From positions 1 to 56,700 of IMG/VR virus record IMGVR_UViG_3300013102_000035: a stretch of 56,700 nucleotides of DNA; one strand, 5' to 3'. Source of the stretch: a virus. The notes beneath the pieces are model-generated. The model had not been told where the DNA came from, searched no databases, and saw nothing but the letters and a program-made list of their open reading frames with translations. Positions within the stretch are counted from its first letter, which is position 1. Every line of letters starts with the position of its first letter. Both the position numbers and the translations under genes were made by a program. Below are positions 2 through 18,280 of the stretch, piece by piece.

Positions 2-244
2 TGGATCGCTGACGGCGTTGCGTACGAAGACGCCATCGACATACCGACCTACGGCGGACCGGCCCGCTGGGTTGAATGGGCCGACCTTTCATCCTCACCG
101 ATGGACGCCCTGCCGTTGTCTGCGGCGCACCGGAAGGCGATCATCGATAACTACAACAGCAATGAACCCCAGGATTCCACCGAAAGCGGGCAATGGGATA
201 AGCCCGGAGGGGTCCGTACAGACCATCCGTGGTGGAAGCCCTAG
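2..244 (+). CDS. Hypothetical protein, C-terminal part only
   Basis: Reading frame 2 is open from the window edge to a TAG at 242-244, giving 80 residues of a protein whose start lies upstream. Codon use matches the phage genes that follow. I do not recognise a family. The extreme C-terminus reads TDHPWWKP, which resembles the TQHRWWKA end of the small gene at 10697-10831, so the two may share a C-terminal motif. The promoter for the next transcription unit begins directly at the stop codon. Confidence 0.6.
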   Translation, partial: WIADGVAYEDAIDIPTYGGPARWVEWADLSSSPMDALPLSAAHRKAIIDNYNSNEPQDSTESGQWDKPGGVRTDHPWWKP

Positions 245-299
245 TGTGACCAACCGCACACACGGAACCATTGACACCGGCCGCAACGACCCCTAGGAT
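244..299 (+). promoter_or_regulatory. Promoter with palindromic GTGTGA operator (copy 1)
   Basis: Operator GTGTGA-CCAACC-GCACAC occupies 244-261. It is followed after 9 bases by -35 TTGACA (271-276), a 17-base spacer and -10 TAGGAT (294-299). Unlike the other operator-bearing promoters there is no start codon just downstream, so the product is probably the structured RNA region that follows. Confidence 0.7.
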
Positions 300-304
300 G
301 TACT

Positions 305-720
305 TATCGCACAGAACACCGAGGAACCCTCTGAGTCCTCTCCGGTGAAACCAGTCCTGACGGCTAACGACCACGACCTGCTGCCGAGATGGCAGGCGAT
401 CCCTGAATGAAGACTGGTGGAGGCTAGGCGGCGGCAAGTCCGCTGAGGGGAGTGAAGGTGTAAAACAGTAGCCCTAGCGGCCGAGAGCATCCGGGGAGTG
501 CGCACGATCCGGGGAGGGTAGGCGGCGAAGGCGCTGGCTGTGCGGTGTGCAGACTACCATAGAAGGGACACACCCCCGGATTCCAAACCGGGACAGAAAC
601 CCTTCCAGCGGAATCGCGACCGGTGGAAGGCTGCGGGCGCTCTGGATGAGCACGGCTTCTATAACAAGCCGGGGGAGGCATCCCCATCCGGGTTCGATTC
701 CCGGCCCTGCTGTCCCGATT
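305..720 (+). ncRNA. Probable structured non-coding RNA region
   Basis: No credible coding frame exists here, although a consensus promoter fires into it. Paired segments include CCAGTC (351-356) with GACTGG (412-417) enclosing a CTGCC/GGCAG hairpin. Three hairpins follow in tandem: GGTGTG (544-549)/CACACC (569-574), CCCGG (575-579)/CCGGG (588-592), and CCTTCCA/TGGAAGG near 602-631. The sequence ATCCGGGGAG is directly repeated near 489 and 507. The region ends with a tRNA-like element. The exact RNA ends and the family are unknown. Confidence 0.4.
632..711 (+). tRNA. tRNA-like element with long variable arm, anticodon-loop ATA (Tyr-like?)
   Basis: A perfect T arm (CCGGG, loop TTCGATT, CCCGG) is preceded by a class II type variable arm (GGGGA/TCCCC). 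The anticodon stem is GGCTT/AAGCC with loop CTATAAC, and the short D-like stem is GCTC/GAGC. A long variable arm plus anticodon ATA would fit a tyrosine tRNA. However, the acceptor stem pairs over only about 5 bp (633-637 with 706-710), the D loop is very short and no CCA is encoded. It may be a degenerate tRNA or a tRNA mimic. Confidence 0.45.
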
Positions 721-735
721 TGGGATCCGGGGGTT

Positions 736-1062
736 TTACTTTCTCTGCCGCGCCTGCCTCGCTAGGGTTCCTTTGGCGGCGTTGAGCGATTGCAAGCTGG
801 CCGTCTGCGCCGCCGACTCAACCTCATCACACGCGCGAAACCACTCGCCTGCAACCCTATGCGCCGCTAGCGAGGCGTGCAGCGTTTTCTCATCTTCGCG
901 GCTGCCCGACGACAGATACCCGATGATCTCAAGGTCATCAGAGAATCCAAGCGCCCTAGCGTCGCGCTTTAGATGGGAAAAGCGGTTCTGCAAGAACGAC
1001 GCCGCGCTGGCGGTGTAGCCGATCTTGACGACGCCGCTGGACGATTTTACGAAATAGACCAT
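736..1062 (-). CDS. GIY-YIG / T5orf172-like nuclease-domain protein
   Basis: This 108-residue protein is essentially one GIY-YIG fold. It starts VYFVKSS, carries KIGYT (residues 13-17), a candidate catalytic Arg at 27, and the family signature E-x5-LH...GEWF at 56-75. This architecture matches small stand-alone T5orf172/Mug113-like proteins, which are often nucleases of unknown target. It lies on the minus strand beside a tRNA-like element, so a homing or RNA-related role is possible but only inferred. A second protein with the same domain is encoded at 48099-48740. Confidence 0.75.
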   Translation of the reverse strand: MVYFVKSSSGVVKIGYTASAASFLQNRFSHLKRDARALGFSDDLEIIGYLSSGSREDEKTLHASLAAHRVAGEWFRACDEVESAAQTASLQSLNAAKGTLARQARQRK

Positions 1063-1068
1063 TGTTCA

Positions 1069-1085
1069 CCAATCTTGTGAAGATT
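1069..1085. repeat. Inverted repeat CAATCTT-gtg-AAGATTG
   Basis: A perfect 7-base inverted repeat lies just upstream of the minus-strand GIY-YIG gene. It could be an operator for that gene or an RNA hairpin in its leader. Confidence 0.4.
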
Positions 1086-1362
1086 GCGCGGGGCGCTTTT
1101 CAGGAACCCCAACAGCCCAAACAACCCTTACTAAGGTCAGCCGGAATTCAAAGTTATCGTCCGGAACTTCTTCTAGGGCATGCTCAAGGACCACTCAAGA
1201 TAGATCAAAACCATCTATTTGCAGGGGTTTCTTGGAATAGCTATGTTAGGTGTCCCTTGAGAGTACACCGCTGCCCTCCCGCTCGCCCTGGCTGGCTCTG
1301 CCGAGCCGCCAGGCGAGGCTGGGCTTACAGCCGGAAGCTTATCACACCGCGCGCACGAATCG

Positions 1363-1381
1363 TATGTAGCTTTCCTACATA
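1363..1381. promoter_or_regulatory. Candidate operator, copy A (TGTAGCTTTCCTACA core)
   Basis: Perfect inverted repeat TATGTAG-ctttc-CTACATA. Its 15-base core (1365-1379) recurs exactly, in reverse orientation, at 1651-1665 immediately ahead of a promoter. Confidence 0.55.
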
Positions 1382-1495
1382 TAGGCGATTTTGGCTCTAC
1401 AGCGCCGTTTTTAGGGGTGCGGCGGCGGCGGACTTAGGGTCGATCTTGTCAATTTACAGCGACTGTAAGGATTTTCGCCTGAGGAAGCGTCCCAC

Positions 1496-1519
1496 TTGAG
1501 AGCATTTTAGGGGTATTTG
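1496..1519 (+). repeat. Dispersed 24-base element, copy 1
   Basis: TTGAG-AGCATTTTAGGGGTATTTG here is nearly the same as TTGAGG-GGCATTTTAGCGGTACTTG at 41070-41094, with two substitutions and one indel in the shared part. Both lie in gene-free stretches next to candidate promoters. Confidence 0.5.
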
Positions 1520-1650
1520 AGTATACTCTACCAAAATGGTGGGGTTAGTGAAGAAAGGGTTACTGGCGGTAACCTAGGCCGGTTTGGGAACATCTTGGCG
1601 CGTAGCCGCTCATTATCACCAGTGAAGGCTCTTTGGTGGTGTGAATTCTG

Positions 1651-1695
1651 TGTAGGAAAGCTACAATTGCGTTCCTCTCGGCCGGGTGCTAGGAT
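1651..1695 (+). promoter_or_regulatory. Promoter with TGTAG operator, copy B
   Basis: Operator TGTAG-gaaag-CTACA (1651-1665) abuts -35 TTGCGT (1667-1672). A 17-base spacer and -10 TAGGAT (1690-1695) follow. The operator is the exact reverse complement of the site at 1365-1379, so a bound protein could bridge the two. The promoter serves the small-gene operon that begins near 1700. Confidence 0.6.
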
Positions 1696-1699
1696 TCTC

Positions 1700-1849
1700 A
1701 TGCGCCGTCAGCACGCCATGTCCGTGGCGGGTGGCGGGGAGCGTCAGCGACGCGAACGTGGGCGGACACCTACCGACGCCGAGCCGATGGCAGCCTCTCG
1801 TCCGGATCGAGCCGGACACGGCGAACAACTTCCAAAGGAGCACCTATGA
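1700..1849 (+). CDS. Possible 49-residue basic peptide (doubtful)
   Basis: An ATG four bases after the -10 box opens a frame that ends in an ATGA overlap with the next gene, typical of coupled phage genes. The product is rich in Arg, Gly and Glu with no recognisable domain. A second ATG at 1718 is equally possible, and the segment may simply be a leader. Confidence 0.3.
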   Translation: MRRQHAMSVAGGGERQRRERGRTPTDAEPMAASRPDRAGHGEQLPKEHL

Positions 1850-1977
1850 TCCTCACCATCATTCTCATCGCCATCCCCGTAGTGCTCGTGCCCGCGATCA
1901 TCTCCACGCACGTACGGTCCTACCGCGCCTACATGGCCGCGCTGGACGCCCTTGACACAGACCACGTCACCCGGTAG
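1846..1977 (+). CDS. Small membrane protein (43 aa)
   Basis: The start is set by a strong ribosome site (AAAGGAG, 6 bases from ATG). The N-terminus is a single hydrophobic helix (about residues 2-19, rich in Ile, Leu and Val), followed by a short polar tail. The family is unknown. The -35 box of the next promoter lies inside its last codons. Confidence 0.6.
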   Translation: MILTIILIAIPVVLVPAIISTHVRSYRAYMAALDALDTDHVTR

Positions 1978-1979
1978 CG
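1951..1979 (+). promoter_or_regulatory. Promoter, probably leaderless start at 1988
   Basis: -35 TTGACA (1951-1956), 17-base spacer, -10 TAGCGT from 1974. The next ATG (1988) begins 8 bases downstream, so transcription should start at or near the start codon. Confidence 0.5.
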
Positions 1980-1987
1980 TACGCGCC

Positions 1988-2284
1988 ATGATGAACGCCA
2001 TCACCATCACCAGATCCCAGCTTCGGGCGGCGGTCCTCTCCGCGATCACCCAGGCGCGCCCGGTCCTGGACGCCGACGCCATCGCGCGCCTGCACGACGT
2101 GGCCGACACCGCCATCGTGCTCGACTCAAACTACGAAGACGAAGGCCACGGCGGCTGCGTCGCCACCCAAGCCGCGCTTGCTACTGGCCCGCAGCGCTCC
2201 GTGTTCGCGTTCGCGTTTGACGACGCGATGAGCCACATGGACAAGCTGGCCTTCGAGGACGAGTTCTACCGGGTGATCGGATGA
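1988..2284 (+). CDS. Hypothetical protein, GGC-ATQA paralogue 1
   Basis: This 98-residue protein starts at the first of two adjacent ATGs placed for a leaderless message. Its central motif, D-x2-Y-ED-x-G-H-GGCVATQA, recurs in the next gene, so the two are tandem paralogues. The function is unknown. The stop codon overlaps the next start (ATGA). Confidence 0.65.
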   Translation: MMNAITITRSQLRAAVLSAITQARPVLDADAIARLHDVADTAIVLDSNYEDEGHGGCVATQAALATGPQRSVFAFAFDDAMSHMDKLAFEDEFYRVIG

Positions 2285-2595
2285 ACCCCATCGAGGTCGC
2301 CGCACGGCGTGTTGACGTTGTCACGTGCGCCAAGCAGGCCATCGACTTGGCGGGCACCCTATCCGGGCACGAGCAGGCCGCGCTGATGCGCGCCGCGAGC
2401 ACGACAATCGCGTTCGATAACGGCTTCAAGGACAACGGCAATGGTGGCTGCCTCGCCACACAGGCGGGACTGACCCAGCCCGGTAATCCTCATACCGATA
2501 TATTGCCGTTCGCGCTCACCTTCGACCGCCTGCTACAGCGCCGCTACCCCGGCTACAGCACCGTCTTCCCGACCGTGGTGACGGTGACCGCATGA
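2281..2595 (+). CDS. Hypothetical protein, GGC-ATQA paralogue 2
   Basis: This 104-residue protein has D-x2-F-KD-x-G-N-GGCLATQA in its middle, matching the preceding gene. The N-terminal helix-rich half and the downstream DILPFAL/VFAFAF segment also align. A local duplication is the simplest explanation. No enzymatic motif is visible. It overlaps its neighbours by ATGA on both sides. Confidence 0.65.
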   Translation: MNPIEVAARRVDVVTCAKQAIDLAGTLSGHEQAALMRAASTTIAFDNGFKDNGNGGCLATQAGLTQPGNPHTDILPFALTFDRLLQRRYPGYSTVFPTVVTVTA

Positions 2596-2777
2596 GCGGT
2601 TACATCTCGACGCTGGTGATCGCCACGATCAACGTGATGCTCTTTGCCTTCTCGCTGTTGTTGTCGTTCGACATCAATGCGTGGGTGCTCTTTTACGGTG
2701 CGGTGTATTGCGTCGGTATGTGGGTCGGCATGTGGGTCGGCGTGAAAATTCGCGAGCACGCCGAGCGTGATCGCTGA
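2592..2777 (+). CDS. Two-helix membrane protein (61 aa)
   Basis: Hydrophobic stretches at about residues 7-25 and 30-50 are followed by a charged C-terminus (KIREHAERDR), giving a small two-pass membrane protein. The motif GMWVGMWVG is an internal repeat. Function unknown. Confidence 0.6.
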   Translation: MSGYISTLVIATINVMLFAFSLLLSFDINAWVLFYGAVYCVGMWVGMWVGVKIREHAERDR

Positions 2778-2971
2778 TGTTGTACCTGATCATCAAAGAG
2801 GCCGTCTACTACCCTTCAGGCGGCACGTACGACTGGAAGCTGCTCACCGCTGATGAGGCAGAGGCGCTCGCCGCTTGGGCCGCGCTCCCCGACGACGACC
2901 TCAGCTACGTGTACACACTGGTGCGCATCGACCCTTCCATCCCGACGTACACACAATTGGACTATAAGTGA
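2777..2971 (+). CDS. Hypothetical protein (64 aa)
   Basis: A small acidic soluble protein beginning MLYLIIKEAVYYPSGG. It is tightly packed, sharing one base with the previous stop and four with the next GTG start. No family recognised. Confidence 0.6.
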   Translation: MLYLIIKEAVYYPSGGTYDWKLLTADEAEALAAWAALPDDDLSYVYTLVRIDPSIPTYTQLDYK

Positions 2972-3141
2972 TCACGACACTGCTGATCCTGAAGGTTGCG
3001 CTGTACGCGCTGATCAGTGTGGCGTCAATCGGCGTAGCGTTCGCTTGGCATCTGTTCGAGCGTGCCCGCTATCGCCGCCGCATCAACGACATCTACGAGC
3101 GTCACGGCATGGGCGCTATCAAGCCTTACGACGAGGACTGA
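2968..3141 (+). CDS. Single-pass membrane protein (57 aa)
   Basis: It starts at GTG overlapping the upstream TGA (GTGA). A hydrophobic helix spans residues 3-28, and a basic Arg-rich segment (residues 31-39) would hold the C-terminus in the cytoplasm. Function unknown. Confidence 0.55.
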   Translation: MITTLLILKVALYALISVASIGVAFAWHLFERARYRRRINDIYERHGMGAIKPYDED

Positions 3142-3142
3142 T

Positions 3143-3343
3143 ATGACCTACGCACAACTCACCATCATCGCCGAGCAGGCCCGCACAGCCGCCGAACATT
3201 CGATGCAAGACTACGCCGAGCGCTCCTACGACGGCGTATCCTATGCGACCGACTCAGACCTACGCGAGCTTTCACGGGAAGTCTATGACGCGGTCATCGA
3301 CGCCGGTCGGCAGTTTGTCGCGCCGATCATTGTGGTGGACTAG
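3143..3343 (+). CDS. Hypothetical protein (66 aa)
   Basis: I chose the ATG just after the upstream stop, because a longer frame from 3062 would overlap coding sequence. The product MTYAQLTII... is mostly helical and acidic. No family recognised. Confidence 0.55.
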   Translation: MTYAQLTIIAEQARTAAEHSMQDYAERSYDGVSYATDSDLRELSREVYDAVIDAGRQFVAPIIVVD

Positions 3344-3550
3344 ATGACCGCTAAGCAATGGTTGGTGTGTGTCTTTACGTTCGCTGTCGCGTTCGTGGTG
3401 TTCTTCACAGTGGTCATGCTTGCCTCAGATGGCTACACGCCCACGCACCAAAAGATCAATCGTGCCTGCACCGGCCACGGCGGAGTGCGACAGGTGCCCG
3501 ACGATCTGACAGTGGTTGTCTGTAACGACGGAGAAGTGGAGCCTTACTGA
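3344..3550 (+). CDS. Membrane-anchored small protein (68 aa)
   Basis: A hydrophobic segment (about residues 7-27) is followed by an outside-type domain with two Cys (CTGHGG and VVCND), which could form a disulfide. It immediately follows the previous stop. Function unknown. Confidence 0.6.
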   Translation: MTAKQWLVCVFTFAVAFVVFFTVVMLASDGYTPTHQKINRACTGHGGVRQVPDDLTVVVCNDGEVEPY

Positions 3551-4229: not shown

Positions 4230-4690
4230 CCGATCTAACTGACCCGTGTCTCACGCACTGCTGCCCAATTCACGGCTGCAAGTACGGCCGGGGTGGGGAG
4301 TTTCGACTCTTTGAATCCTGTGTCGTCGCAGGCGGGACGGTCGAGCCGGTCTACCCGAAGAACAACGGCTGCGAGATCTGTGAGTTTGCTCACACTTCGG
4401 TTGACAGCGATAGCGAGCCGTGTAAGGATGTGGCTATGAATTACGACGAAACAACTGAAGAGCAGCCCTGGCTCGTTTACGTCCTGAGCCGCACCAACGC
4501 CTTCGGCTGGGTCGAGCCGGTCAAGCAGCCGCGCATCTACGGCATGACCGTTGCGGCCGAGCGTACCGCGCGCGAGCTTGAACTTGGGGACGGCGTGCAC
4601 CAGCTTGCCGTGCTGTGCCCAGAGGACAACGAGCTTTGGCCGATCACCGTCACCGTGTCGATCATGTACAACGTCCGGGCGTCGGAATGA
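4226..4690 (+). CDS. Cys-rich HCCxxHGCKY protein (154 aa)
   Basis: It starts at GTG in a GTGA overlap. Residues 1-50 carry CLTHCCPIHGCKYG and a later C-x2-C (CEIC), a pattern I know from small phage proteins that probably bind zinc. Residues about 70-154 look like a separate alpha/beta domain starting MNYDETTEEQ. The two parts may be a fusion of genes that are separate elsewhere, with the internal ATG as a second start. Confidence 0.6.
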   Translation: MTDLTDPCLTHCCPIHGCKYGRGGEFRLFESCVVAGGTVEPVYPKNNGCEICEFAHTSVDSDSEPCKDVAMNYDETTEEQPWLVYVLSRTNAFGWVEPVKQPRIYGMTVAAERTARELELGDGVHQLAVLCPEDNELWPITVTVSIMYNVRASE

Positions 4691-5258: not shown

Positions 5259-5259
5259 C

Positions 5260-5589: not shown

Positions 5590-5601
5590 AGGAACCCCAA
5601 C

Positions 5602-6024
5602 ATGGCTGACACGAATATCACCCCCGAGCAGGCCCGCGCTGAATGGGCCGCAGCGCTTCGTAGCGGTGAGTACAAGCAAGGCACCGGGCTGCTCCATAAG
5701 ATTATGCTCATTTTCGAGCCAGAAGGCGACACGCGTGAAGAGGAACAGCACTGCTGCCTCGGCGTCGCCTGCGACATCGCGGTCAAGCATGGCGTGATCG
5801 AGCCGCCGCAGTTTGACGGGCTGGCGAAGGCGTGGTGCTACGCCGACGACCTTGAGGCGACGAACACGCACCTTCCTCGTAAGGTCGCTCAGTTCTTCGG
5901 CGTAGCCCAATCGCCTGTGCGCAAGTCTGACCACGCGCCGCTCACCGACCTGAACGACATTGGCACGAGCTTCGATGAGATCGCAGACGCCATTGAGCAG
6001 GACGACCTGACCATGCTCGATTAG
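5602..6024 (+). CDS. Conserved phage protein, ALRSGEY...CCLGVACD family
   Basis: This 140-residue protein has the pattern WAAALRSGEYKQG...HCCLGVACD, which is widespread in phages of many hosts and has no known function. The start is supported by the stereotyped ribosome site AAGGAACCCCAAC. It is the last gene before an operator-bearing promoter. Confidence 0.7.
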   Translation: MADTNITPEQARAEWAAALRSGEYKQGTGLLHKIMLIFEPEGDTREEEQHCCLGVACDIAVKHGVIEPPQFDGLAKAWCYADDLEATNTHLPRKVAQFFGVAQSPVRKSDHAPLTDLNDIGTSFDEIADAIEQDDLTMLD

Positions 6025-6074
6025 TGTGACATCGATCACACATCCTTGACAAGTACACGCCAAGCAGTAAGGAT
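6024..6074 (+). promoter_or_regulatory. Promoter with GTGTGA operator (copy 2)
   Basis: Operator GTGTGA-CATCGA-TCACAC (6024-6041) is a perfect half-site palindrome. It is followed by -35 TTGACA (6046-6051) and -10 TAAGGA/AAGGAT (6068-6074). The ATG at 6082 is 7-8 bases after the -10, implying a leaderless message. Confidence 0.75.
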
Positions 6075-6081
6075 CCCCGCC

Positions 6082-8006: not shown

Positions 8007-8388
8007 TGAGCTTATTGACGAGATCCCGCCTGAGCGTGACCTGATCGCGTTCAGCCGCGCACTGCGCAAGGTTGGCGTCGCTAATGAGATTCACGACGGA
8101 CGCATCCTCGCGACAGAGTTTGAGGATATGGACGACCTTCAGGCGGTAGTTGATACGGACGACTTTCGCGAGGCGTATCGTCAGGAGCTTATCTCGTGGG
8201 CTACAGACCATCTTCTGTCGAGCCTGCACGCCAAGGGCGTAATTGAGCCGAGTGTTCGAGAGGACGGCAGCCTGCAATACACGCTCAGCGAATATGGCGC
8301 GATGCGGTTCGAGCAGGAATACGGCGAGCCGCCCACGGGCATGAAGTTTACGAAGAGGCCCCTTGACAGCGACGGCGACGACCTGTAA
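7996..8388 (+). CDS. Hypothetical acidic protein (130 aa)
   Basis: Mostly helical and acidic with no recognised family. Its last codons contain the -35 and spacer of a consensus promoter that reads into the gene-free stretch downstream. Confidence 0.6.
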   Translation: MNVDELIDEIPPERDLIAFSRALRKVGVANEIHDGRILATEFEDMDDLQAVVDTDDFREAYRQELISWATDHLLSSLHAKGVIEPSVREDGSLQYTLSEYGAMRFEQEYGEPPTGMKFTKRPLDSDGDDL

Positions 8389-8391
8389 GAT
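8363..8391 (+). promoter_or_regulatory. Consensus promoter firing into gene-free region (RNA A)
   Basis: -35 TTGACA (8363-8368), 17-base spacer, -10 TAAGAT (8386-8391). No start codon with a ribosome site follows, so the transcript is probably non-coding. Confidence 0.65.
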
Positions 8392-8397
8392 TCTTCT

Positions 8398-8590
8398 TGT
8401 CGGTTGGAAAACACTAGCTCGCAAGGACATGGAGCGGCCGACATAATCGCCCCGGACAGGCGAGGGGAGGCGCGGCGCGTCACCCCTCGCCAAGTTCGAT
8501 TATATCCCCAGCGTGAAGACCGGCTGCGAAAACTCCGGGGGCGGCCACTCACCGACCCCTAACGAAGAAACATAAAGATTTAGCAAGTTC
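8398..8590 (+). ncRNA. Candidate non-coding RNA A
   Basis: Transcribed from the promoter at 8363-8391. It contains a 9-bp hairpin GGCGAGGGG (8459-8467)/CCCCTCGCC (8483-8491) and further GC-rich pairing near 8535-8558. No convincing terminator of its own is seen, so transcription may continue into RNA B. It does not match tRNA, tmRNA or RNase P features that I can recognise. Confidence 0.4.
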
Positions 8591-8591
8591 C

Positions 8592-8619
8592 TTGACCTGC
8601 GTGCTGGGTTCTGTATAGT
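8592..8619 (+). promoter_or_regulatory. Promoter for RNA B
   Basis: -35 TTGACC (8592-8597), 16-base spacer, -10 TATAGT (8614-8619), in the middle of a gene-free stretch. Confidence 0.6.
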
Positions 8620-8625
8620 TCTCCT

Positions 8626-8880
8626 TGTCAGCCAGCAACCGGGATCGTACCCCGGTCATGTTTCGATCAAGCCCCAAAATTGTGGGCGAGCCTCCGAGCG
8701 ACAGGTAGGCACGGGACCTCTGGGCACGGTGCTTGTTGGGTCGCCTGACGTTGATGCTGGCGGGCGCTGCGAATCCGGGGTTATAACATGTACCGGCCAG
8801 TCCCCGCCCTTGCGATGAAGTACCAAACAGAATAGCCGGAAGCGGACGCCCCTGATAGGCCATCGGGGGCGTCCGCCTTT
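8626..8880 (+). ncRNA. Candidate structured non-coding RNA B (about 255 nt)
   Basis: A promoter at 8592-8619 and an intrinsic terminator at 8842-8880 delimit a segment without credible coding frames. It opens with the hairpin CCGGG-atcgta-CCCCGG and has further GC-rich helices. Size and insulation suggest a stable RNA. I cannot place it in a known class. Confidence 0.55.
8842..8880 (+). terminator. Strong intrinsic terminator
   Basis: An 11-bp stem GCGGACGCCCC (8842-8852)/GGGGCGTCCGC (8866-8876) is followed by CTTTG. It separates RNA B from the next operator-bearing promoter, which begins at 8881. Confidence 0.85.
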
Positions 8881-8925
8881 GTGTGACCAGATCACACTTG
8901 ACATTCTCGCCGAGATCCCTAGAAT
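8881..8925 (+). promoter_or_regulatory. Promoter with GTGTGA operator (copy 3)
   Basis: Operator GTGTGA-CCAGA-TCACAC (8881-8897) has a 5-base spacer where the other copies have 6, and abuts -35 TTGACA (8898-8903). A 16-base spacer and -10 TAGAAT (8920-8925) follow. ATG at 8934 is 8 bases downstream. Confidence 0.75.
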
Positions 8926-9744: not shown

Positions 9745-10253
9745 TGCTGCGTAAATTCATTGAGTGGTTTTACTCCTGGCAGCCTACCTCCGGTTGGGTT
9801 ATCGCAGGCTGGCTGCCTATCAACCTGCCGATTTGGTTCGTGCACTCGGACGTGGCGTGGTGTATTACACTCTGCTGGGCGGTTGTCTCCGCAACGATTG
9901 CATTCGTCGCCGTACCGTTTGAATCTGCCCGCCGCGCGAATTTGCGGCGCGCGCAATCCGCACGTGGGATCAGATATCGGCGCGCACACCTACATGTCGA
10001 ACCTGACGGCGACCGCGTGGTAATCGAATACAAGGAGCGCCCTGAAGGTGTCGGCCCTCAGCTTCTATACCCGTTCTATTTGAACCCGGAGATCGTTAGG
10101 GGCAGTGCCGCCGCGCGCTACGTCTTTCACGCTACTGACGAAGCAGACGAAGCCCATAGGGTTGCCTCTGAGCTTCGTGCACGAGCAGAAATGAAGCCCA
10201 TCGACAAGCATAGCCAGGAGGCGCGATTGCTTGCGAAGGTGCTCTCGAAGTAG
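9744..10253 (+). CDS. Membrane protein (169 aa)
   Basis: The N-terminal third contains two hydrophobic helices (about 17-33 and 37-57) followed by a basic stretch (SARRANLRRAQSARG) and a cytoplasmic-type C-terminal domain. Function unknown. Confidence 0.6.
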   Translation: MLRKFIEWFYSWQPTSGWVIAGWLPINLPIWFVHSDVAWCITLCWAVVSATIAFVAVPFESARRANLRRAQSARGIRYRRAHLHVEPDGDRVVIEYKERPEGVGPQLLYPFYLNPEIVRGSAAARYVFHATDEADEAHRVASELRARAEMKPIDKHSQEARLLAKVLSK

Positions 10254-10303
10254 TGTGCGATACGTCACAGATCACTTGACGGCGCTGGATAGCTCTGTAG
10301 ACT
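10253..10303 (+). promoter_or_regulatory. Promoter with GTGTGA-type operator (copy 4)
   Basis: Operator GTGTGC-GATACG-TCACAG (10253-10270), -35 TTGACG (10276-10281), 16-base spacer, -10 TAGACT (10298-10303). ATG at 10311 is 7 bases downstream. Confidence 0.7.
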
Positions 10304-10310
10304 TCATCCC

Positions 10311-10700: not shown

Positions 10701-10831
10701 CCGCCGACAAGTGCAACGAGAAGCATCCCCGCATCGAAGGCGTGGTCTGCGTCCATTGGGCCAATCACGTCGGCTCTTGCGGCGCGCCTGACGGCACCGG
10801 CAAGACCCAACATCGGTGGTGGAAGGCGTAA
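10697..10831 (+). CDS. Small Cys/His protein ending HRWWKA (44 aa)
   Basis: It overlaps the previous gene by ATGA. Three Cys and several His (KCNEKH, VCVHWANH, SCGAP) suggest a mini zinc-binding fold. The end TQHRWWKA resembles the TDHPWWKP terminus of the partial gene at 2-244. Confidence 0.55.
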   Translation: MTADKCNEKHPRIEGVVCVHWANHVGSCGAPDGTGKTQHRWWKA

Positions 10832-10848
10832 AGTCTTCCGCCGCCGAT

Positions 10849-10900
10849 GTGTGACATCGGTCACACTTCGCTTGACATTCATCCCCTCACCTGATTGGAT
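10849..10900 (+). promoter_or_regulatory. Promoter with GTGTGA operator (copy 5)
   Basis: Operator GTGTGA-CATCGG-TCACAC (10849-10866), -35 TTGACA (10872-10877), 17-base spacer, -10 TTGGAT (10895-10900). ATG at 10908 is 7 bases downstream. Confidence 0.75.
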
Positions 10901-10907
10901 CCCCATT

Positions 10908-11273
10908 ATGAAGCTCATCTGCACATACGCCGATCCGGACAAGAAGATCCAGGCGATCAAGGTTATCCGCGCCGCTTCCGGCCTCGGCCTCAAGGAGGCC
11001 AAGGAGGCTGCCGACGCGCTCACCGGTAGTTACCTGCCTAAGGAGGACAAGCGCGTGCTCGCGGCTGGACTTACACGGGCGGCAGCGAACGCGAAGCTTG
11101 ACATCCTGCGTGACGGTGGCTACGCCGATGGCTATATCGAACTGGACGACAACGAGCCGACGTTTTCGCAGTTTGACGTGATCGATGCCGTCGTGGACGC
11201 CATCGTGCTCGCCCGAGCCAACCCGGCCGTGCTCCCGAGCGAGATCCTCAAGGCGGTGCTTGACCGTGGCTGA
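10908..11273 (+). CDS. Protein with ribosomal L7/L12 C-terminal-like motif (121 aa)
   Basis: Residues 13-36 (KIQAIKVIRAASGLGLKEAK and following) closely match the factor-binding helix-turn-helix of ribosomal protein L7/L12, whose bacterial form reads K-x-xVIK-x-VR-x-xTGLGLKEAK. In the ribosome this surface recruits translation GTPases. Here it sits at the N-terminus, without the L7/L12 dimerisation domain, followed by an unknown domain. Modulating host translation factors is a reasonable inference. Leaderless start from an operator-controlled promoter. Confidence 0.7.
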   Translation: MKLICTYADPDKKIQAIKVIRAASGLGLKEAKEAADALTGSYLPKEDKRVLAAGLTRAAANAKLDILRDGGYADGYIELDDNEPTFSQFDVIDAVVDAIVLARANPAVLPSEILKAVLDRG

Positions 11274-11804: not shown

Positions 11805-12019
11805 TGCACACCGACCCGCACAGCCCCGTATACGACCCGCGTCCGGCGCTTCGTGACGCTGTTCGCTCGAAGATTCTGAGTGGATGGTACTGGCACGTGA
11901 ACGCCGAGGGCGAGACCGTTTGGGTATTGGTGCCTGCTGCCCCGCACATGCGCTCGATCCCCCACATTCCAGCCGCGTACATTCCGTCGATACTTGCGCA
12001 CTTGCACGTCGCTGTGTGA
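11804..12019 (+). CDS. Hypothetical protein (71 aa)
   Basis: Small His- and Pro-rich protein with several Trp and Tyr; no family recognised. Its stop codon lies within the next operator. Confidence 0.55.
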   Translation: MHTDPHSPVYDPRPALRDAVRSKILSGWYWHVNAEGETVWVLVPAAPHMRSIPHIPAAYIPSILAHLHVAV

Positions 12020-12070
12020 CGTATCGCACAGTTCTAATGCTTGACTTCTCTCCCACCACCTGAGAGGCTA
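12014..12070 (+). promoter_or_regulatory. Promoter with GTGTGA operator (copy 6)
   Basis: Operator GTGTGA-CGTATC-GCACAG (12014-12031), 9-base gap, -35 TTGACT (12041-12046), 17-base spacer, -10 GAGGCT (12064-12069). ATG at 12076. It drives the rIIA-like gene. Confidence 0.7.
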
Positions 12071-12075
12071 CCGAC

Positions 12076-14055
12076 ATGATCGTTGACCGACCTACAGATA
12101 CCACCGTCTTTTCGTCCATCAGCGGCGACGAGGCCCGCATGGGCCTTGACCCGAACGCCACGGCGCACCTTATGTCCGTGCTGACCGACCTCTACAATGA
12201 CCCTGAGACGGCGGTCATTCGCGAGTACAGCACGAACGCCATCGACGCGCATATCGCGGCGGGCGTCACTCGTCCCATCGAAGTGACGCTGCCGTCGGCG
12301 CTGCACCAGTTCTTCTCGGTGCGCGACTACGGTGTCGGCCTGACGCGCGATGACATCTTCGAGATCTACTCGCAGTACGGCGCGTCCACAAAGCGCAACA
12401 CGAACGACTTCAACGGGACGCTGGGCCTTGGTTGCAAGGCCGGTCTGACCTACACGTCTCAGTTCACGGTCGAGTCAGTCAAGGACGGCCGCAGGATCGT
12501 CGTCGTGGTTTCGCGCGATGAGGACGGCGGCAACATGACCGTGATCAAGCCTGCCGTGTCGCACCCGGAGGACCCCTACGCCGAACCCACCGACGAACCG
12601 AACGGAACGAAGGTCACCGTGCCGGTCAAGCGCTATAACGAATTCGAGAGCAAGGCCGCGAACCTGTTCAAGTTCGGTTGGGCGGGCAAGGTGCTGGTCA
12701 ATGGCAAGGAGCCGCAGCAGGTCTCCACGTTCGCGATCTCGGACACGATCCACACGACGACCGAGCTTCAGAAGGACTACGTCGTCATGGGCGGTGTGCC
12801 GTACCCGGTGGAGCGCGGGCAGATCGACCACGGGCTGTCGTGGAATTACAACATCGTCTGCTACGTGCCCATCGGTGACGTGAATTTCACGCCGTCGCGA
12901 GAGTCCCTGCGCATGACCACGCGTACCAAGGAAACGCTCGCCCGGTTGACCGAGCAGTTCAAGTCCGACGCGCTGAAGGCGGTGCAGGACGCGATCAACG
13001 CGTGCGCCACTCCGGCTGAGGCGCTGAACAAGATGCTTGAGTGGCACCGCATGCTGCCGAGCAATCTGCGGCCGGTCGGAGGCAAGTACACTTACAACGG
13101 CGGCGACCTTCCGACCAGCTTCGAGCAGAAGGACATGATCAAGGTCCCTGAGTATTCGAGCAAGCTCAGCGGGCATGACCGTGTCGATTACATCACCGCC
13201 GAGACCTGGCCTACGACGATTTGGTTCTACGGGTTTGAGTATGAGAACTTCACGGCCACCATGCGTAAGAAGATCAACCACTATATCGGTGAGATGCATA
13301 ACCCCTTTGACGGCGGCCACAGCCAGTTTGTGCTTACCGGCGCGCGGCCCCGCAGTCCGTTCATTGACCCTGCGCGCGTTATCCCGTGGGAGACCATCGA
13401 CAAGATCAAGCTGCCGCGCCGCGTCGGCGCGCGCATGGGCGCGAGTGGTCGCATCCCCGGATCGTACGACATGTACACGGCCACTGGCAAGCACTACGGT
13501 GTCCCGGCCGACGACATCGACACCGACGAGCCGGTGTTCTGGAACGACCGCTATTACGCCTCTAAGCACGAGCCGTACCTGCGTAAGTTCTATCCGGACT
13601 GCACCGTTGTGATCCTCACCGAGAATCGCATCGAGAAGTTCAAGCGCAATTTCCCCGAGGCCGAGCGGACGACCACGCGTATCGATTCCCTGGCTAAGAA
13701 ATTCAAGGCAGCCGTCAAGGACTCCGACAAGCGCAACCTGGCGATCCAGAACGCGCGTTGGGCGGCACGTGTGCGGTTGTTCGATGAGAGCCGCATCGAT
13801 GATCCGAATCTCAAGGCCGCGATCATCGAGACCAAGAACGCGGACGCTTCGGAATTCCGTGACAAGCTCGCCGCCATCCAGTCCGTGTCCTACATAAACA
13901 TCGAATTGCCGACCGTCGAGGACCCCCTGCGCCGCTTCACGTTGCTGCCGAACTACTACAGCAGCCTGCCGGACATGGAGCACGTCTACCTGTATGTCAA
14001 CGCGGTCTACGCGGCTGAAATTGCCGCGCAGTCCACGCTGCGGACCGCCGCTTGA
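12076..14055 (+). CDS. rIIA: rIIA-like GHKL ATPase protein
   Basis: This 659-residue protein carries the GHKL (Bergerat) ATP-binding fold at its N-terminus. The N box is REYSTNAIDAH (49-59) with Glu50, Asn54 and Asp57; G1 is DYGVGL (84-89); and the lid/G2 is GTLGLGCKAG (114-123). This order and spacing match the T4 rIIA family found in many large phages. T4 rIIA is membrane-associated and protects against RexAB exclusion. The partner rIIB-like gene follows directly, as in T4. The long C-terminal part has no motif I can name. Confidence 0.85.
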   Translation: MIVDRPTDTTVFSSISGDEARMGLDPNATAHLMSVLTDLYNDPETAVIREYSTNAIDAHIAAGVTRPIEVTLPSALHQFFSVRDYGVGLTRDDIFEIYSQYGASTKRNTNDFNGTLGLGCKAGLTYTSQFTVESVKDGRRIVVVVSRDEDGGNMTVIKPAVSHPEDPYAEPTDEPNGTKVTVPVKRYNEFESKAANLFKFGWAGKVLVNGKEPQQVSTFAISDTIHTTTELQKDYVVMGGVPYPVERGQIDHGLSWNYNIVCYVPIGDVNFTPSRESLRMTTRTKETLARLTEQFKSDALKAVQDAINACATPAEALNKMLEWHRMLPSNLRPVGGKYTYNGGDLPTSFEQKDMIKVPEYSSKLSGHDRVDYITAETWPTTIWFYGFEYENFTATMRKKINHYIGEMHNPFDGGHSQFVLTGARPRSPFIDPARVIPWETIDKIKLPRRVGARMGASGRIPGSYDMYTATGKHYGVPADDIDTDEPVFWNDRYYASKHEPYLRKFYPDCTVVILTENRIEKFKRNFPEAERTTTRIDSLAKKFKAAVKDSDKRNLAIQNARWAARVRLFDESRIDDPNLKAAIIETKNADASEFRDKLAAIQSVSYINIELPTVEDPLRRFTLLPNYYSSLPDMEHVYLYVNAVYAAEIAAQSTLRTAA

Positions 14056-14080
14056 CATCTTGACCGACATCGTCTAAGCT
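14052..14080 (+). promoter_or_regulatory. Promoter for rIIB-like gene
   Basis: -35 TTGACA (14052-14057), 17-base spacer, -10 TAAGCT (14075-14080). This one has a real leader with a ribosome site (GAGGGAG) before ATG 14118. Confidence 0.65.
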
Positions 14081-14117
14081 GATCAAAGAATCCACCACCA
14101 GAGGGAGCAAACACTAC

Positions 14118-15272
14118 ATGCAAGCAACCCATGGACTTCACGACGGCGAGCAGTTCATCACCGTCTTCATCCCCGGCCAGGACATCCTCTCGGCCACCGA
14201 CAGCTTCCCGGCGTTCGAGCAGATTGTCACCCGTGTCGGCGAACTGAACGCCAAGCTCAAGGACGGCGGCTCGCTGTCTGACGGCGAGATCGAGGACCTT
14301 CAGGCACTGTTCCAGCCTGCCAAGGCCATCGTCCAGAAGTTCCGACGCCTTTCGGACCGCGTGACGGTCAAGGACGGTGTGATGCTGCTGGACGGCGACC
14401 CGGTCCATAACACGCTCGCCGAGCAGGTGCTGCGTTTCCTTGACGCGGGTGAGGACTTCAGCCCGCTGGTGCGCTTCTATGAGCGCCTGCTGGCAAACGT
14501 CGATGGCGTCCGTCCGGAGGCAGCCGCGCACAGCCGTGAGCAGCTTTACGACTGGCTCAAGACCCACGACTTCACGATCACCGATGACGGTATGATCGTT
14601 GGCTACAAGGGCGTCACGCCTGGCGGTGAGTGGGAGGGGCAGCCGTGCTTCCAGTCCACGCGTCGGGGTCCGGCCACGGTCAACGATGTAGACGTGGACG
14701 GCTACGTTCCGAACCCGGACGGCGCGGTCATCCGTATGCAGCGCTCCCAGGTCACGCACGACCCGAACACGCACTGCTCTCCTGGGCTGCACGTTGGCAC
14801 GTTCGCCTATGCCAAGAGCTTCACCGGCAATGTGCTTGAGGTTCACGTTGACCCGGCGAAGGTCGTGAGCGTGCCGACTGAGACCCGCGCGAACAAGATG
14901 CGTGTCTGCGAATACCATGTCATCGGCATCGTGGAAGAGCAGTACACGTCCCCGGTGCTGGTCACCACGCCTTCGACTGACGACGGCGACGAGGACTATC
15001 GCGATGACGAGGACTACTGCGACAACTGCGGTGACTTCGCCTGCGACGGCCCGTGCGAGGGCTGCGACTCCTGTTACTGCGACGGCTCCTGCCAGTACGA
15101 CGACGGCTGGGATGAGCCGGACGCCGCTGGCGACACGGCACCCGAGATCTCCGGCTCCGGCGCAGCCGCGCAGGCAATCCGCAACGCCGGTACCGGGCGT
15201 TGGGCCGAGGGTAACCCCGGCCGTCCCGGCTCCGCGCGCGGCACGACCGGACGGTTCGCCGCCGAGTCCTAA
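14118..15272 (+). CDS. rIIB: rIIB-like protein with Cys/Asp-rich tail
   Basis: This 384-residue protein has the rIIB core pattern: PLVRFYERLL (116-125), LYDWL (143-147), ITDDGMIVGYKGV (154-166), then CSPGLHVGTFAYAKSF (220-235) and an RVCEYHV segment (262-268). It follows rIIA, as in T4-like phages. The tail (about 285-335) is unusual: eight Cys at 301-325 in pairs such as CDNC and CDSCYC, embedded in acidic residues, probably a metal-binding knuckle absent from the classical protein. The last 40 residues are Gly/Pro/Arg-rich and likely disordered. Confidence 0.8.
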   Translation: MQATHGLHDGEQFITVFIPGQDILSATDSFPAFEQIVTRVGELNAKLKDGGSLSDGEIEDLQALFQPAKAIVQKFRRLSDRVTVKDGVMLLDGDPVHNTLAEQVLRFLDAGEDFSPLVRFYERLLANVDGVRPEAAAHSREQLYDWLKTHDFTITDDGMIVGYKGVTPGGEWEGQPCFQSTRRGPATVNDVDVDGYVPNPDGAVIRMQRSQVTHDPNTHCSPGLHVGTFAYAKSFTGNVLEVHVDPAKVVSVPTETRANKMRVCEYHVIGIVEEQYTSPVLVTTPSTDDGDEDYRDDEDYCDNCGDFACDGPCEGCDSCYCDGSCQYDDGWDEPDAAGDTAPEISGSGAAAQAIRNAGTGRWAEGNPGRPGSARGTTGRFAAES

Positions 15273-15300
15273 GAGCTTCCCCACGGGGGAAGGTGCGACT

Positions 15301-15340
15301 AGCGCTCCCGGCCTGGTGGTGGGCTGGGAGCGCTTTGTCG
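15301..15340 (+). terminator. Intrinsic terminator after rIIB
   Basis: Stem AGCGCTCCC (15301-15309)/GGGAGCGCT (15326-15334) is followed by a T-rich tail. A second small hairpin (CTTCCCC/GGGGAAG) precedes it near 15276-15292. Confidence 0.8.
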
Positions 15341-15342
15341 TT

Positions 15343-15398
15343 GTGTGATGCATCGCACACTCTCGACTCTTGACAGGTTCAAGCGCAGACCTTAGTAT
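15343..15398 (+). promoter_or_regulatory. Promoter with GTGTGA operator (copy 7)
   Basis: Operator GTGTGA-TGCATC-GCACAC (15343-15360), 9-base gap, -35 TTGACA (15370-15375), 17-base spacer, -10 TAGTAT (15393-15398). ATG at 15406 is 7 bases downstream. Confidence 0.75.
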
Positions 15399-15405
15399 GC
15401 CGCTT

Positions 15406-15690
15406 ATGGATCAGGTCACCACTTCTACTGAATGCCCCTCTTGCGGTGAGTCGCCGATGGGCACGGGCTGCTACCACATCTGCCCCAACAGCATCCATTT
15501 CTACTCGCCCGAGCAGGAGCGTTACGACGACCAGTTCTACGGCGAGGACGATATGCGCGAGCGCTACGCTGGCGAGCTTATCGGACTTGAGGATGATTAT
15601 CAGGAGGACCCCGAGGACTTTATCCTTGACGCCGCGCATCACGCCGCCCCGGTCCTGCCGCCTGCCGCCCCCGACGACATCCCCTTCTAG
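15406..15690 (+). CDS. Conserved phage zinc protein, YSPEQE motif (94 aa)
   Basis: Begins with C-x2-C...C...C (CPSCGESP, CYHICPNS) followed by YSPEQER, a pattern I associate with small actinophage zinc-binding proteins of unknown role. The acidic C-terminus ends in DDIPF. Leaderless start; earlier in-frame codons lie within the promoter. Confidence 0.65.
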   Translation: MDQVTTSTECPSCGESPMGTGCYHICPNSIHFYSPEQERYDDQFYGEDDMRERYAGELIGLEDDYQEDPEDFILDAAHHAAPVLPPAAPDDIPF

Positions 15691-15704
15691 AAAGGAACCC
15701 CAAC

Positions 15705-15965
15705 ATGCCCAACTTTCACGTCATCGCGCTCGTGCCGTCATGGGCAGCGGGCAATGAGTTGAATTGCACTCGCGACAAGGGTAAGGACCCGCGCGATGCG
15801 CTAGAATCGCGTCTCAACAAGGTCTCGCACTCGCTGAACTTCGACACTGCACAGTTCATCGTGGTTGAGACGCATGATCCGTACTTCGCGGACGCGCACC
15901 TGTTCAACGTCACTACGACTGGCCCGCACAGCTTCTACATTTCGAAGGGCCGCGTCAATGCGTAG
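15705..15965 (+). CDS. Hypothetical protein (86 aa)
   Basis: Ribosome site AAAGGAACCCCAACATG. Reads MPNFHVIALVPSW; alpha/beta ferredoxin-like length. Family unknown. Confidence 0.6.
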   Translation: MPNFHVIALVPSWAAGNELNCTRDKGKDPRDALESRLNKVSHSLNFDTAQFIVVETHDPYFADAHLFNVTTTGPHSFYISKGRVNA

Positions 15966-16197
15966 GTCCATCATGACGCCGCTGACCGAGTCGGGCTTCG
16001 AATTCATCCACGGCCGTCCTCCGGTCTTCAAGGACTTCTTCTCCGGCTTCTGTGTCCCGGCGTGGCCGTATACGCAGGTTGACGCGCTGACGGCGAAGGA
16101 TCACGCCACGATCATCGAGACGGGTAACCGTCTCTATGACGCCGCCCACAACTTCGGTGGTCTGGTGCATCCCGAGGACACGGAAGAGGCGGCGTAA
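15958..16197 (+). CDS. Hypothetical protein (79 aa)
   Basis: I chose the ATG overlapping the previous gene by 8 bases because AAGGG lies at a workable distance; a second ATG at 15973 is possible. No motif recognised. Confidence 0.5.
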   Translation: MRRSIMTPLTESGFEFIHGRPPVFKDFFSGFCVPAWPYTQVDALTAKDHATIIETGNRLYDAAHNFGGLVHPEDTEEAA

Positions 16198-16208
16198 CCG
16201 AAGCGCCT

Positions 16209-16652
16209 ATGTCTGAGTCCGTTACACTTAGGTATGGGTGGGGTTTCGAGGCTGCGCTTCCGTATGGGGACATCACGCCCGAGACTGAAGTTGCGTTCAC
16301 GCGAGGGCATTGCCATGCGCTCGCTGTCGCGCTCCATGAGGCCACCGGCTGGCCGATCTATGAGGCATATTACGACGGCCATTTGCCGGACCCTGATGAG
16401 GCCGGTGGGCATTTCGCCGTCAAGTGCCCGGACGGACGCATCGTGGACGTGATGGGCGCGTACACCGAAGACGAGGAAGCCTTTCCTGGCTGGGGCGTCG
16501 CTACCTGGGTGCCGTCTGACATCGCCCGAATTCAATGGGCGGTCAACTGGGATGGGTACCGTCCGCTTGAGGACGCCCTTGATTTGGCGCGCTCGCTGGT
16601 GCCTCATGTGCTTCGCCGAGCGTTTGGCCTTGACAAACAAGAGACAACCTGA
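16209..16652 (+). CDS. Possible papain-like fold protein (147 aa)
   Basis: RGHCHALAVALHEATGW (residues 32-48), HFAVKCPDG (68-76) and IVDVMGA (78-84) give a Cys35-His68-Asp80 arrangement like papain-like or transglutaminase-fold hydrolases. Similar small proteins occur in phages without known function. Catalysis is inferred from spacing only. Confidence 0.5.
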   Translation: MSESVTLRYGWGFEAALPYGDITPETEVAFTRGHCHALAVALHEATGWPIYEAYYDGHLPDPDEAGGHFAVKCPDGRIVDVMGAYTEDEEAFPGWGVATWVPSDIARIQWAVNWDGYRPLEDALDLARSLVPHVLRRAFGLDKQETT

Positions 16653-16658
16653 GAGGAT
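16630..16658 (+). promoter_or_regulatory. Promoter, probably leaderless start at 16666
   Basis: -35 TTGACA (16630-16635), 17-base spacer, -10 GAGGAT (16653-16658), then 7 bases to ATG. It lies within the end of the preceding gene and has no GTGTGA operator. Confidence 0.55.
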
Positions 16659-16665
16659 CCCCACC

Positions 16666-17055
16666 ATGGCAAGCAAACGAATCACAGCCACCGCCGAGCC
16701 TGGACGCGTGTCCATCAGTGTTCCGACAACCGGCTTCACGCCGGACCCTGACACCGCTCGCGAGATCGCCGCTGATCTCATAGCGGCGGCCGACCGCGCC
16801 GACGAGCTTCGCTTTCGCGAGGTTCGTAACGCGGTCGCGGTTCCGGCTCATCCTGAGCGTTGGAAGCACATCTACATCGTGCACAGAGGCCGACTGGACA
16901 TGATGACCAACGAGCTTCACACGCGGGAAGTGACGCATGTCGTCGGCATGGACGGCGGCGCGCCGCTTGACTCCAGTCGCCGCACGACCAAGGGCCTGCT
17001 GACTATCGGAGACGGTGCTGACGATTTCAAACTAATCTACGAGCAGGAGAACTAG
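16666..17055 (+). CDS. Hypothetical protein (129 aa)
   Basis: Starts MASKRITATAEPGRVSIS. Alpha/beta and soluble. The longer upstream frame overlaps coding sequence and was discarded. Function unknown. Confidence 0.6.
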   Translation: MASKRITATAEPGRVSISVPTTGFTPDPDTAREIAADLIAAADRADELRFREVRNAVAVPAHPERWKHIYIVHRGRLDMMTNELHTREVTHVVGMDGGAPLDSSRRTTKGLLTIGDGADDFKLIYEQEN

Positions 17056-17258
17056 TGTTCAACCAGTACACAGCCACCGCCGCCGCTTGGCTGGAACTGC
17101 TCACCGACGAGCAGGCTGACGCGTTGGTTACGGTCGCGGACCGGGTCGGCGACGGTCTTGTCGTCGCGGTCAACGGCTCGTTCATCGTCGCTACGCACCC
17201 CGACAGCATCGGATATGTGTTCACGGCCCGCATTCGGCCGGAAAGACTGGGCCTGTAA
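17055..17258 (+). CDS. Hypothetical protein (67 aa)
   Basis: GTG start sharing one base with the upstream TAG. Helix-strand pattern (ALVTVADRVGDGLVVAVNGSFIV). Unknown. Confidence 0.55.
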   Translation: MFNQYTATAAAWLELLTDEQADALVTVADRVGDGLVVAVNGSFIVATHPDSIGYVFTARIRPERLGL

Positions 17259-17588
17259 ATGCCTCCGATCACCCCCGAGCAGGCACAGGCCGCCGACAGG
17301 AGCAAGCCGATCCCCGAGGACGTGTTCGAGGTTTTCAACGAGTTGATCGTTGACGATCTGAGCGCGGATGGACGCGCCCGCGTCTACAGGGACGACGCAG
17401 TCGAGCGATTGGCCGCCAAGGGCTACCGCGCGAGCGATTTGTTCATAGAAGGGTGGCTAGACGTTGAGCCGCATTACCGTGCGGCAGGATGGAATGTCAC
17501 TTACGATCAGCCTGCGTACAACGAGTCGTATGCGGCGTACTACGACTTCGTCAAGGACACTGGCGTCAAGGCAAAGGCGACACCGTGA
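17259..17588 (+). CDS. Hypothetical protein (109 aa)
   Basis: The region around VFEVFNELIVDDLSADGRARVYRDDAVE and the YDFV C-terminal segment form a conserved-looking alpha/beta domain seen in phage proteins of unknown role. GTGA overlap with the next gene. Confidence 0.6.
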   Translation: MPPITPEQAQAADRSKPIPEDVFEVFNELIVDDLSADGRARVYRDDAVERLAAKGYRASDLFIEGWLDVEPHYRAAGWNVTYDQPAYNESYAAYYDFVKDTGVKAKATP

Positions 17589-17719
17589 GTTACAAAGTGA
17601 TCGCCGCGTTCTCTACACGGGAGCAGCTTGTCAAGATCGTGACCGCCGACGAGCTTGCCGCAGCGGTGCGTGAGGCGTGGGATATGGGCGCTACAGCGGT
17701 GTGCGCAGACGCCGTGTGA
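17585..17719 (+). CDS. Hypothetical protein (44 aa)
   Basis: GTG start within a GTGA overlap, MSYKVIAAFSTREQ. Compact alpha/beta mini-protein. Unknown. Confidence 0.5.
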   Translation: MSYKVIAAFSTREQLVKIVTADELAAAVREAWDMGATAVCADAV

Positions 17720-18078
17720 CTACTAAGGTGCACGGACTAACAATCTACTCCGTGGTATTCCCAGCGCACCTGGGGATGTCTGAGTGGGAGAGCCAGTCCG
17801 TTTATCTGACGGCTCCGAATTTCGTGCAGCCCACAACCTTGAAGTTGCATCGCTGGGTGATCGCCGACGATTACCGCAAGCTCTATGCGCTCTGTCATCG
17901 CAACACACGCGCAGGCGGTTGGGCGTTTATGGTTGTCGGCGCGGACAAGCACCGACTTGATGCAATGGCACTTACCCTCAACAGCGGCTCGCCGCGTTGG
18001 CGTTACGGCGGCGTGGTGCGTTATTCTGACCCGAACGCGTATTTCGTCATGGAGCTTGACATTCGCAAGTCGATGTAA
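17716..18078 (+). CDS. Hypothetical protein (120 aa)
   Basis: GTG start set by overlap with the upstream stop. Mixed alpha/beta with many aromatic residues; no family recognised. Last gene before a short gene-free stretch. Confidence 0.6.
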   Translation: MTTKVHGLTIYSVVFPAHLGMSEWESQSVYLTAPNFVQPTTLKLHRWVIADDYRKLYALCHRNTRAGGWAFMVVGADKHRLDAMALTLNSGSPRWRYGGVVRYSDPNAYFVMELDIRKSM

Positions 18079-18089
18079 TAGGCTTCGAC

Positions 18090-18229
18090 GCAGAGTTTTT
18101 GAAGAGCTAGAGGGTACCGGGCAACCGGCTAAGTTGGCAAAGCGCTAGCCCTCCAATCTTCTCGATAGAACACGCCGCGAAGACCGCCGAGGGCGCGGGG
18201 GCTGCCATCCAACGACCCGTTTTTATGTT
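18090..18229 (+). other. Structured gene-free segment, possible 3' RNA element/terminator
   Basis: No gene. Nested pairing GAAGA/TCTTC around GAGGG/CCCTC encloses a CCGG-GCAA-CCGG hairpin with a GNRA-type loop. A short stem (CGGG/CCCG) ends with TTTTT near 18221, which may terminate transcription before the next promoter. Confidence 0.35.
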
Positions 18230-18280
18230 GTGTGATGTTGGTCACACTTCCCTTGACGGATCCCGAAATCCTCTATAGAG
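18230..18280 (+). promoter_or_regulatory. Promoter with GTGTGA operator (copy 8)
   Basis: Operator GTGTGA-TGTTGG-TCACAC (18230-18247), -35 TTGACG (18253-18258), -10 ATAGAG or TATAGA (18274-18280). ATG at 18289. Confidence 0.75.

Follow-up and report, generated by a model that had tools for sequence, protein, structure and literature searches.

Which regulator would act on a series of palindromes that resemble binding sites of CRP, the cyclic AMP (cAMP) receptor protein, and that each lie just upstream of a promoter in one part of a viral genome? This question is raised by the IMG/VR record IMGVR_UViG_3300013102_000035, which was analyzed over its 56,700 bases (the window). The record is classed as linear, so the window is possibly a fragment, and structural genes are absent from it. 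A first-pass annotation, made from the sequence alone, had described eight promoters sharing a GTGTGA-N6-TCACAC operator and had attributed them either to the host cAMP regulator or to an unknown phage regulator. The answer that we favor, and regard as reasonably probable from the sequence features described below, is that the host CRP/GlxR protein binds and activates these promoters, of which there are nine.

Nine CRP-type operators precede promoters in the window

All eight coordinates previously listed hold a GTGTGA/TCACAC-like palindrome with TTGAC 0-9 nucleotides (nt) later, and a motif scan combined with a scan for N5/N6 palindromes with a downstream TTGAC revealed a ninth, overlooked site of identical design at 4378-4395 (CTGTGAGTTTGCTCACAC). 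The consensus given in the annotation is exact at three sites (6024, 10849 and 18230), with one mismatch at 244, 4378 and 15343 and two at 10253 and 12014; the spacer is of six bases in eight of the nine operators and of five in that at 8881. The shorter TGTGA/TCACA core is exact in 4378, 6024, 8881 (N5), 10849 and 18230, and carries a single mismatch in 244, 10253, 12014 and 15343.

Sixty dinucleotide shuffles of the window served as control. N6 sites with 0-1 mismatch were found six times compared to 0.1 expected, all six upstream of TTGAC, and sites with no more than two mismatches and a TTGAC at most 9 nt away were found nine times compared to ~0.05 expected, so the possibility, raised in the annotation, that shuffled sequence holds the motif as often can be set aside. 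The bare motif at three mismatches was not enriched (23 observed, 24.8 expected), which means that the signal consists of the motif and the -35 box jointly. No further operator of the same kind was detected by the N5/N6 plus TTGAC scan beyond 18.3 kb; as the window is itself a fragment, this does not support the proposed confinement of the regulon to one region.

All nine operators lie on the (+) strand. The operator at 244..261 (GTGTGACCAACCGCACAC) is followed by a -35 box TTGACA (271-276), a spacer of 17 and a -10 box TAGGAT (294-299), with no start codon where transcription is predicted to begin; its transcript would enter a gene-poor stretch with a tRNA-Tyr call at 629-712. Behind the operator at 4378..4395 come TTCGG, the -35 box TTGACA (4401-4406), 17 nt, the -10 box AAGGAT (4424-4429), 6 nt and an ATG at 4436, which places the operator center at -49.5. 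The same center is found for the operators at 6024..6041 (GTGTGACATCGATCACAC; TTGACA 6046-6051, AAGGAT 6069-6074, ATG 6082) and 10253..10270 (GTGTGCGATACGTCACAG; TTGACG 10276-10281, TAGACT 10298-10303, ATG 10311), and a center of -50.5 for those at 10849..10866 (GTGTGACATCGGTCACAC; TTGACA 10872-10877, TTGGAT 10895-10900, ATG 10908) and 18230..18247 (GTGTGATGTTGGTCACAC; TTGACG 18253-18258, TAGAGT 18276-18281, ATG 18289). The N5 operator at 8881..8897 (GTGTGACCAGATCACAC) abuts its -35 box (TTGACA 8898-8903, TAGAAT 8920-8925, ATG 8934) and is centered at -45, whereas the centers lie further upstream for 12014..12031 (GTGTGACGTATCGCACAG; TTGACT 12041-12046, GAGGCT 12064-12069, ATG 12076; -53.5) and 15343..15360 (GTGTGATGCATCGCACAC; TTGACA 15370-15375, TAGTAT 15393-15398, ATG 15406; -54.5).

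Centers were measured from the A of the start codon, and that of operator 244 was placed by its -10 box at about -53.5. In eight of the nine promoters the ATG stands 6-8 nt past the -10 box, and the transcripts are therefore predicted to be leaderless, which makes the ATG usable as a position marker; this is less sure at 4378, 6024, 10849 and 12014, because their -10 boxes are weak. The range of -45 to -54.5 agrees with the -45 to -55 estimated earlier for leaderless starts. Within it the centers fall into three classes, at -45, at about -50 (five sites) and at about -54 (three sites), and the gaps between operator and -35 box are 0, 4, 5, 5, 5, 5, 9, 9 and 9. The same type of -35/-10 promoter also occurs in the window without an operator, e.g. 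at 1952, 14052, 24789 and 28421, so the operator is not obligatory in the promoters of this phage.

The operators match the CRP/GlxR consensus

The consensus of GlxR is TGTGANNTANNTCACA (PMC4254451), and the CRP/GlxR core is TGTGA-N6-TCACA (PMC7999487). The window operators agree with it in the core, in the N6 gap of eight of the nine and in a preference for T3 or A4 in the spacer, present in all eight N6 sites (expected for 37% of sites each; p ~3e-4). The half-site deviations at 10253 (GTGTGC/TCACAG) and 12014 (GTGTGA/GCACAG) are uncompensated in the partner half, from which we infer that the palindrome acts as DNA and not as the stem of an RNA.

In mycobacteria, CRP sites are concentrated between -60 and -40, and those of Mycobacterium tuberculosis genes whose expression is lost when CRP is absent are at -44.5, -54.5, -57.5 and -59.5 (PMC4117774). 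All the window operators are centered inside this band; those at -45 and -54 fit the CRP-dependent positions, and those at -50 lie on another helix face than the gap-9 class described below. The CRP/GlxR half-site and the activator-like position claimed in the annotation are thus both borne out at the level of prediction.

The same module occurs in other phages

A first scan of IMG/VR yielded at least 106 distinct places with the palindrome and TTGAC, with a peak at gap 9 among the matches listed. In a second scan TTGACA, 17 nt and TAnnnT were required and the operator gap was left free between 0 and 29. Among the matches listed there, 43 of 111 distinct promoters had gap 9, 35 of these 43 had A at spacer position 4, and 19 promoters had a gap of 19-21, one helical turn further, where the average of the other bins predicts ~7; near-duplicate contigs remain among the scanned promoters and make the p values optimistic. 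Several contigs carried two to four such promoters each, again among the matches listed. A complete IMG/VR scan with a control palindrome gave 47 matches, 32 of them distinct, and no comparable spacing peak. The operator was found in unrelated phages spanning a wide range of GC content. Of the strict gap-9 pattern, the viral loci listed for the first scan contained 22 distinct versions, whereas bacterial genomes (257 Gb) yielded three matches, all outside the Actinobacteria.

Phages E7 and F5 (OX376640, OX376641) were isolated on 'Ca. Planktophila' (PMC10202952). Each has two perfect operator sites, with 0.1 expected in shuffles of E7; one F5 site lies 9 nt from a TCAAAA-17-TAGAGT promoter, and one of the E7 sites belongs to a structured RNA instead of a promoter. 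This RNA, found in probable freshwater actinophages, consists of a TGTGAG-GNAA-CTCACAG hairpin and, behind it, a fold resembling a three-way junction (CCCC ... GGGGCAC), with two-sided compensatory changes at 12 of 20 pairs (13 sequences), and no Rfam match at the gathering threshold was obtained for any of six loci tested. Its loci are L130:1449 (-) in E7, L012:949, L024:719, L064:1102 (-), L114:5678 (-), L119:8031 (-), L240:5258, L246:2401, L260:6880, L026, L050 and L071. The gap-10 class of the first scan consisted mostly of structured RNA with TTGAC in its loop and was dropped as a second spacing, and the single perfect site of phage BillNye was rejected, as it lies between tRNA genes with no promoter behind it. 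A locus of 66% GC in the second scan (L253) has three CTGTGAA-N4-TTCACAG operators at gaps of 4, 14 and 14 from TTGACA promoters, a spacing possibly related to the half-turn-shifted class of the window.

Host and candidate regulators

The phage of the window probably infects an actinobacterium, as judged by the similarity of its rIIA-like protein to Streptomyces phages (37%) and of its DNA polymerase to mycobacteriophages (30%). On the other hand, its terminase is closest to those of Thermus and other phages (~30%), which makes the host assignment less certain. The first 20 kb had no Megablast match among phages, and no relative was obtained from IMG/VR when the rIIA-like protein alone served as query.

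WhiB proteins are restricted to Actinobacteria and their phages. They are encoded on 25 of the 50 operator-bearing contigs tested and on nine of 46 control contigs, a rough control, since true gap-0, gap-9 and gap-14 promoters included in it supply most of the nine. The CRP-type helix-turn-helix family HTH_Crp_2 (PF13545) was above cut-off in none of the 50 operator-bearing contigs and absent from the window, which is incomplete, and Pfam scans of the called proteins of the window found no cNMP_binding or other cAMP-binding family. A WYL match at 32910-33596 was discarded as a regulator, as it is below cut-off and lacks a helix-turn-helix.

Probable activation by a host regulator and its alternatives

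Between the two regulators that the first-pass annotation had left side by side, a host protein appears more likely than an unknown phage protein, a preference drawn from sequence and resting on the match to the GlxR consensus, the -60 to -40 position, the lack of CRP-type proteins in the window and the 50 contigs, and the sharp spacing peak in other phages. Under activation, the cAMP receptor protein of the host would bind the operators after DNA entry, just upstream of strong housekeeping-type promoters (TTGACA / TAnnnT), and would help to bring in RNA polymerase, probably by way of its alpha C-terminal domain. More transcript would then be made from the genes of the left arm, which are probably early and encode the rIIA-like protein, a protein with an L7/L12 domain and many small proteins. 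We infer that the host encodes CRP and uses it here, and likewise the binding, the activation and the early timing of the genes. If CRP were abundant and weakly cAMP-dependent, as reported for mycobacteria, it may act as a near-constant booster and not as a fuel gauge.

Several observations weigh against activation by host CRP. Five of the nine sites (gap 4-5, center about -50) are half a helical turn off the gap 9 common elsewhere, so the unity attributed to the set is not supported with respect to the spacing dominant in other phages, and exact gap-5 patterns were found on no other contig in IMG/VR. Across the set the operators do not keep one helical phase with the -35 box, though a constant phase is not known to be strictly required by actinobacterial CRP. 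No window operator is at the class I or II positions of Escherichia coli CRP (-61.5, -41.5), and the spacer of 8881-8897 departs from N6. WhiB is not among the called proteins of the window. As for the related phages to which the annotation had pointed, the module with its gap-9 peak is present in many environmental phages, but it was found in none of the flanks examined of 24 rIIA relatives obtained by alignment search; phylogenetic footprinting at that distance is thus uninformative.

The main rival, which we consider unlikely, is that host CRP/GlxR binds but represses, hindering the polymerase at the -35 box so that the genes open only at low cAMP. At gaps of 0-5 a bound dimer would be close enough to reach the -35 region, the promoters come near the consensus unaided, and cAMP-CRP represses the pir, dam and recE promoters of coliphage T1 (PMC6737242). 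The gap-9 sites, however, do not encroach on the -35 box, spacing peaks in helical phase, as seen in other phages, are typical of activation, and the M. tuberculosis positions cited above go with genes that lose expression without CRP. It is improbable, too, that a repressor or activator encoded elsewhere in the phage genome, beyond the window, shares the CRP half-site: such a protein would be compatible with the lack of structural genes in the fragment, with the gap-5 geometry peculiar to this phage and with N5 at one site, but it would leave the same operator in unrelated phages of widely different GC content, the 50 contigs devoid of a CRP-type helix-turn-helix above cut-off and the specific T3/A4 match to CRP/GlxR to be accounted for. 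We give very little credence to the palindromes being RNA hairpins or terminators that end the upstream genes. Several of them do immediately adjoin an upstream stop codon or strong hairpin, and the real structured RNA of other phages includes a hairpin of similar sequence, TGTGAG-GNAA-CTCACA; nevertheless, the mismatches at 10253 and 12014 are uncompensated, no T-run follows the palindromes, and these occupy a set position with respect to the -35 box, ahead of where transcription is predicted to begin.

That the design is shared by many environmental phages suggests that such viruses borrow a metabolic regulator of the host for the expression of their own genes. In its widest form, for which we judge the chances to be somewhat below even, a large set of unrelated phages, many of them infecting Actinobacteria and from freshwater, would have convergently adopted a CRP/GlxR operator placed ahead of a consensus -35 box at a distance of 9 bases or one helical turn more, handing control to the host cAMP regulator, and the phage of the window would be a nine-promoter version with an additional spacing class. 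If true, infection would be linked to the energy state of the host, or CRP would be used by phages as a transcription booster, and operator plus nine bases plus TTGACA would provide a sequence rule for phages of the abundant, hard-to-culture freshwater Actinobacteria. No paper describing an actinophage promoter class of this kind was found in the open-access literature searched.

Genes and hairpins next to the operators

Three operators appear to open new transcription units, as very stable hairpins, two of them terminator-like, immediately precede them on the (+) strand. The terminator-like hairpins are at 8842..8876, directly upstream of operator 8881, and at 15301..15334, directly upstream of operator 15343 (z -5.4 in both cases), and a very stable hairpin without a T-run at 10810..10850 (z -7.5) ends at operator 10849. 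Behind this exact operator, the first gene (10908..11273 (+)) encodes a small protein with a match to the C-terminal domain of ribosomal L7/L12 (PF00542, E 6.6e-8). The rIIA-like gene (12076..14055 (+)) is the first behind operator 12014 and is followed by an rIIB-like gene (14118-15272), and a phrog_2319 family protein of unknown function (18289..19725 (+)) is encoded first behind operator 18230.

A recurring start-site motif near AGGAACCCCAACATG / AGGATCCCCACCATG precedes many genes, e.g. those at 5590, 10494, 15691 and 16654, and resembles the -10-to-ATG stretch of several promoters. Gene-poor stretches are found at 300-1850, where the tRNA-Tyr call has an unusual anticodon, and at 8389-8880, with promoter-like TTGAC sequences at positions 8363 and 8592. 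Two MUG113/T5orf172 (GIY-YIG-like) proteins, at 736-1062 (-) and 48099-48740, are possible homing-type endonucleases.

Comparison with known systems

Repeated short elements are familiar from other actinophages. The stoperators of L5-like mycobacteriophages are asymmetric sites for the phage repressor that are spread over the genome; they resemble the present set in the many operator copies within one phage genome, whereas the window operators are palindromes, go together with promoters and are limited to one arm of the fragment. Cluster K mycobacteriophages carry start-associated sequences next to the start codon, likewise a repeated short motif at actinophage gene starts, but the window operator lies upstream of the -35 box and not beside the start codon. 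A likeness in sequence exists to the CRP/GlxR-activated promoters of Actinobacteria (the regulons of M. tuberculosis CRP and Corynebacterium glutamicum GlxR, and ahpC of Mycobacterium smegmatis), which share the TGTGA-N6-TCACA core, the preference for a central TA and the -60 to -40 position; here, in contrast, the operators sit on phage promoters with near-consensus -35 boxes, and in bacterial genomes the strict gap-9 version hardly occurs. Coliphage T1 offers a precedent for phage promoters that answer to the host cAMP regulator (PMC6737242), a response that is predicted in the present case. CRP acts as a repressor in T1, where the phage's own regulator Pir has the central role, whereas the window presents an array of operators in an activator-like position, in the setting of probable actinophages.

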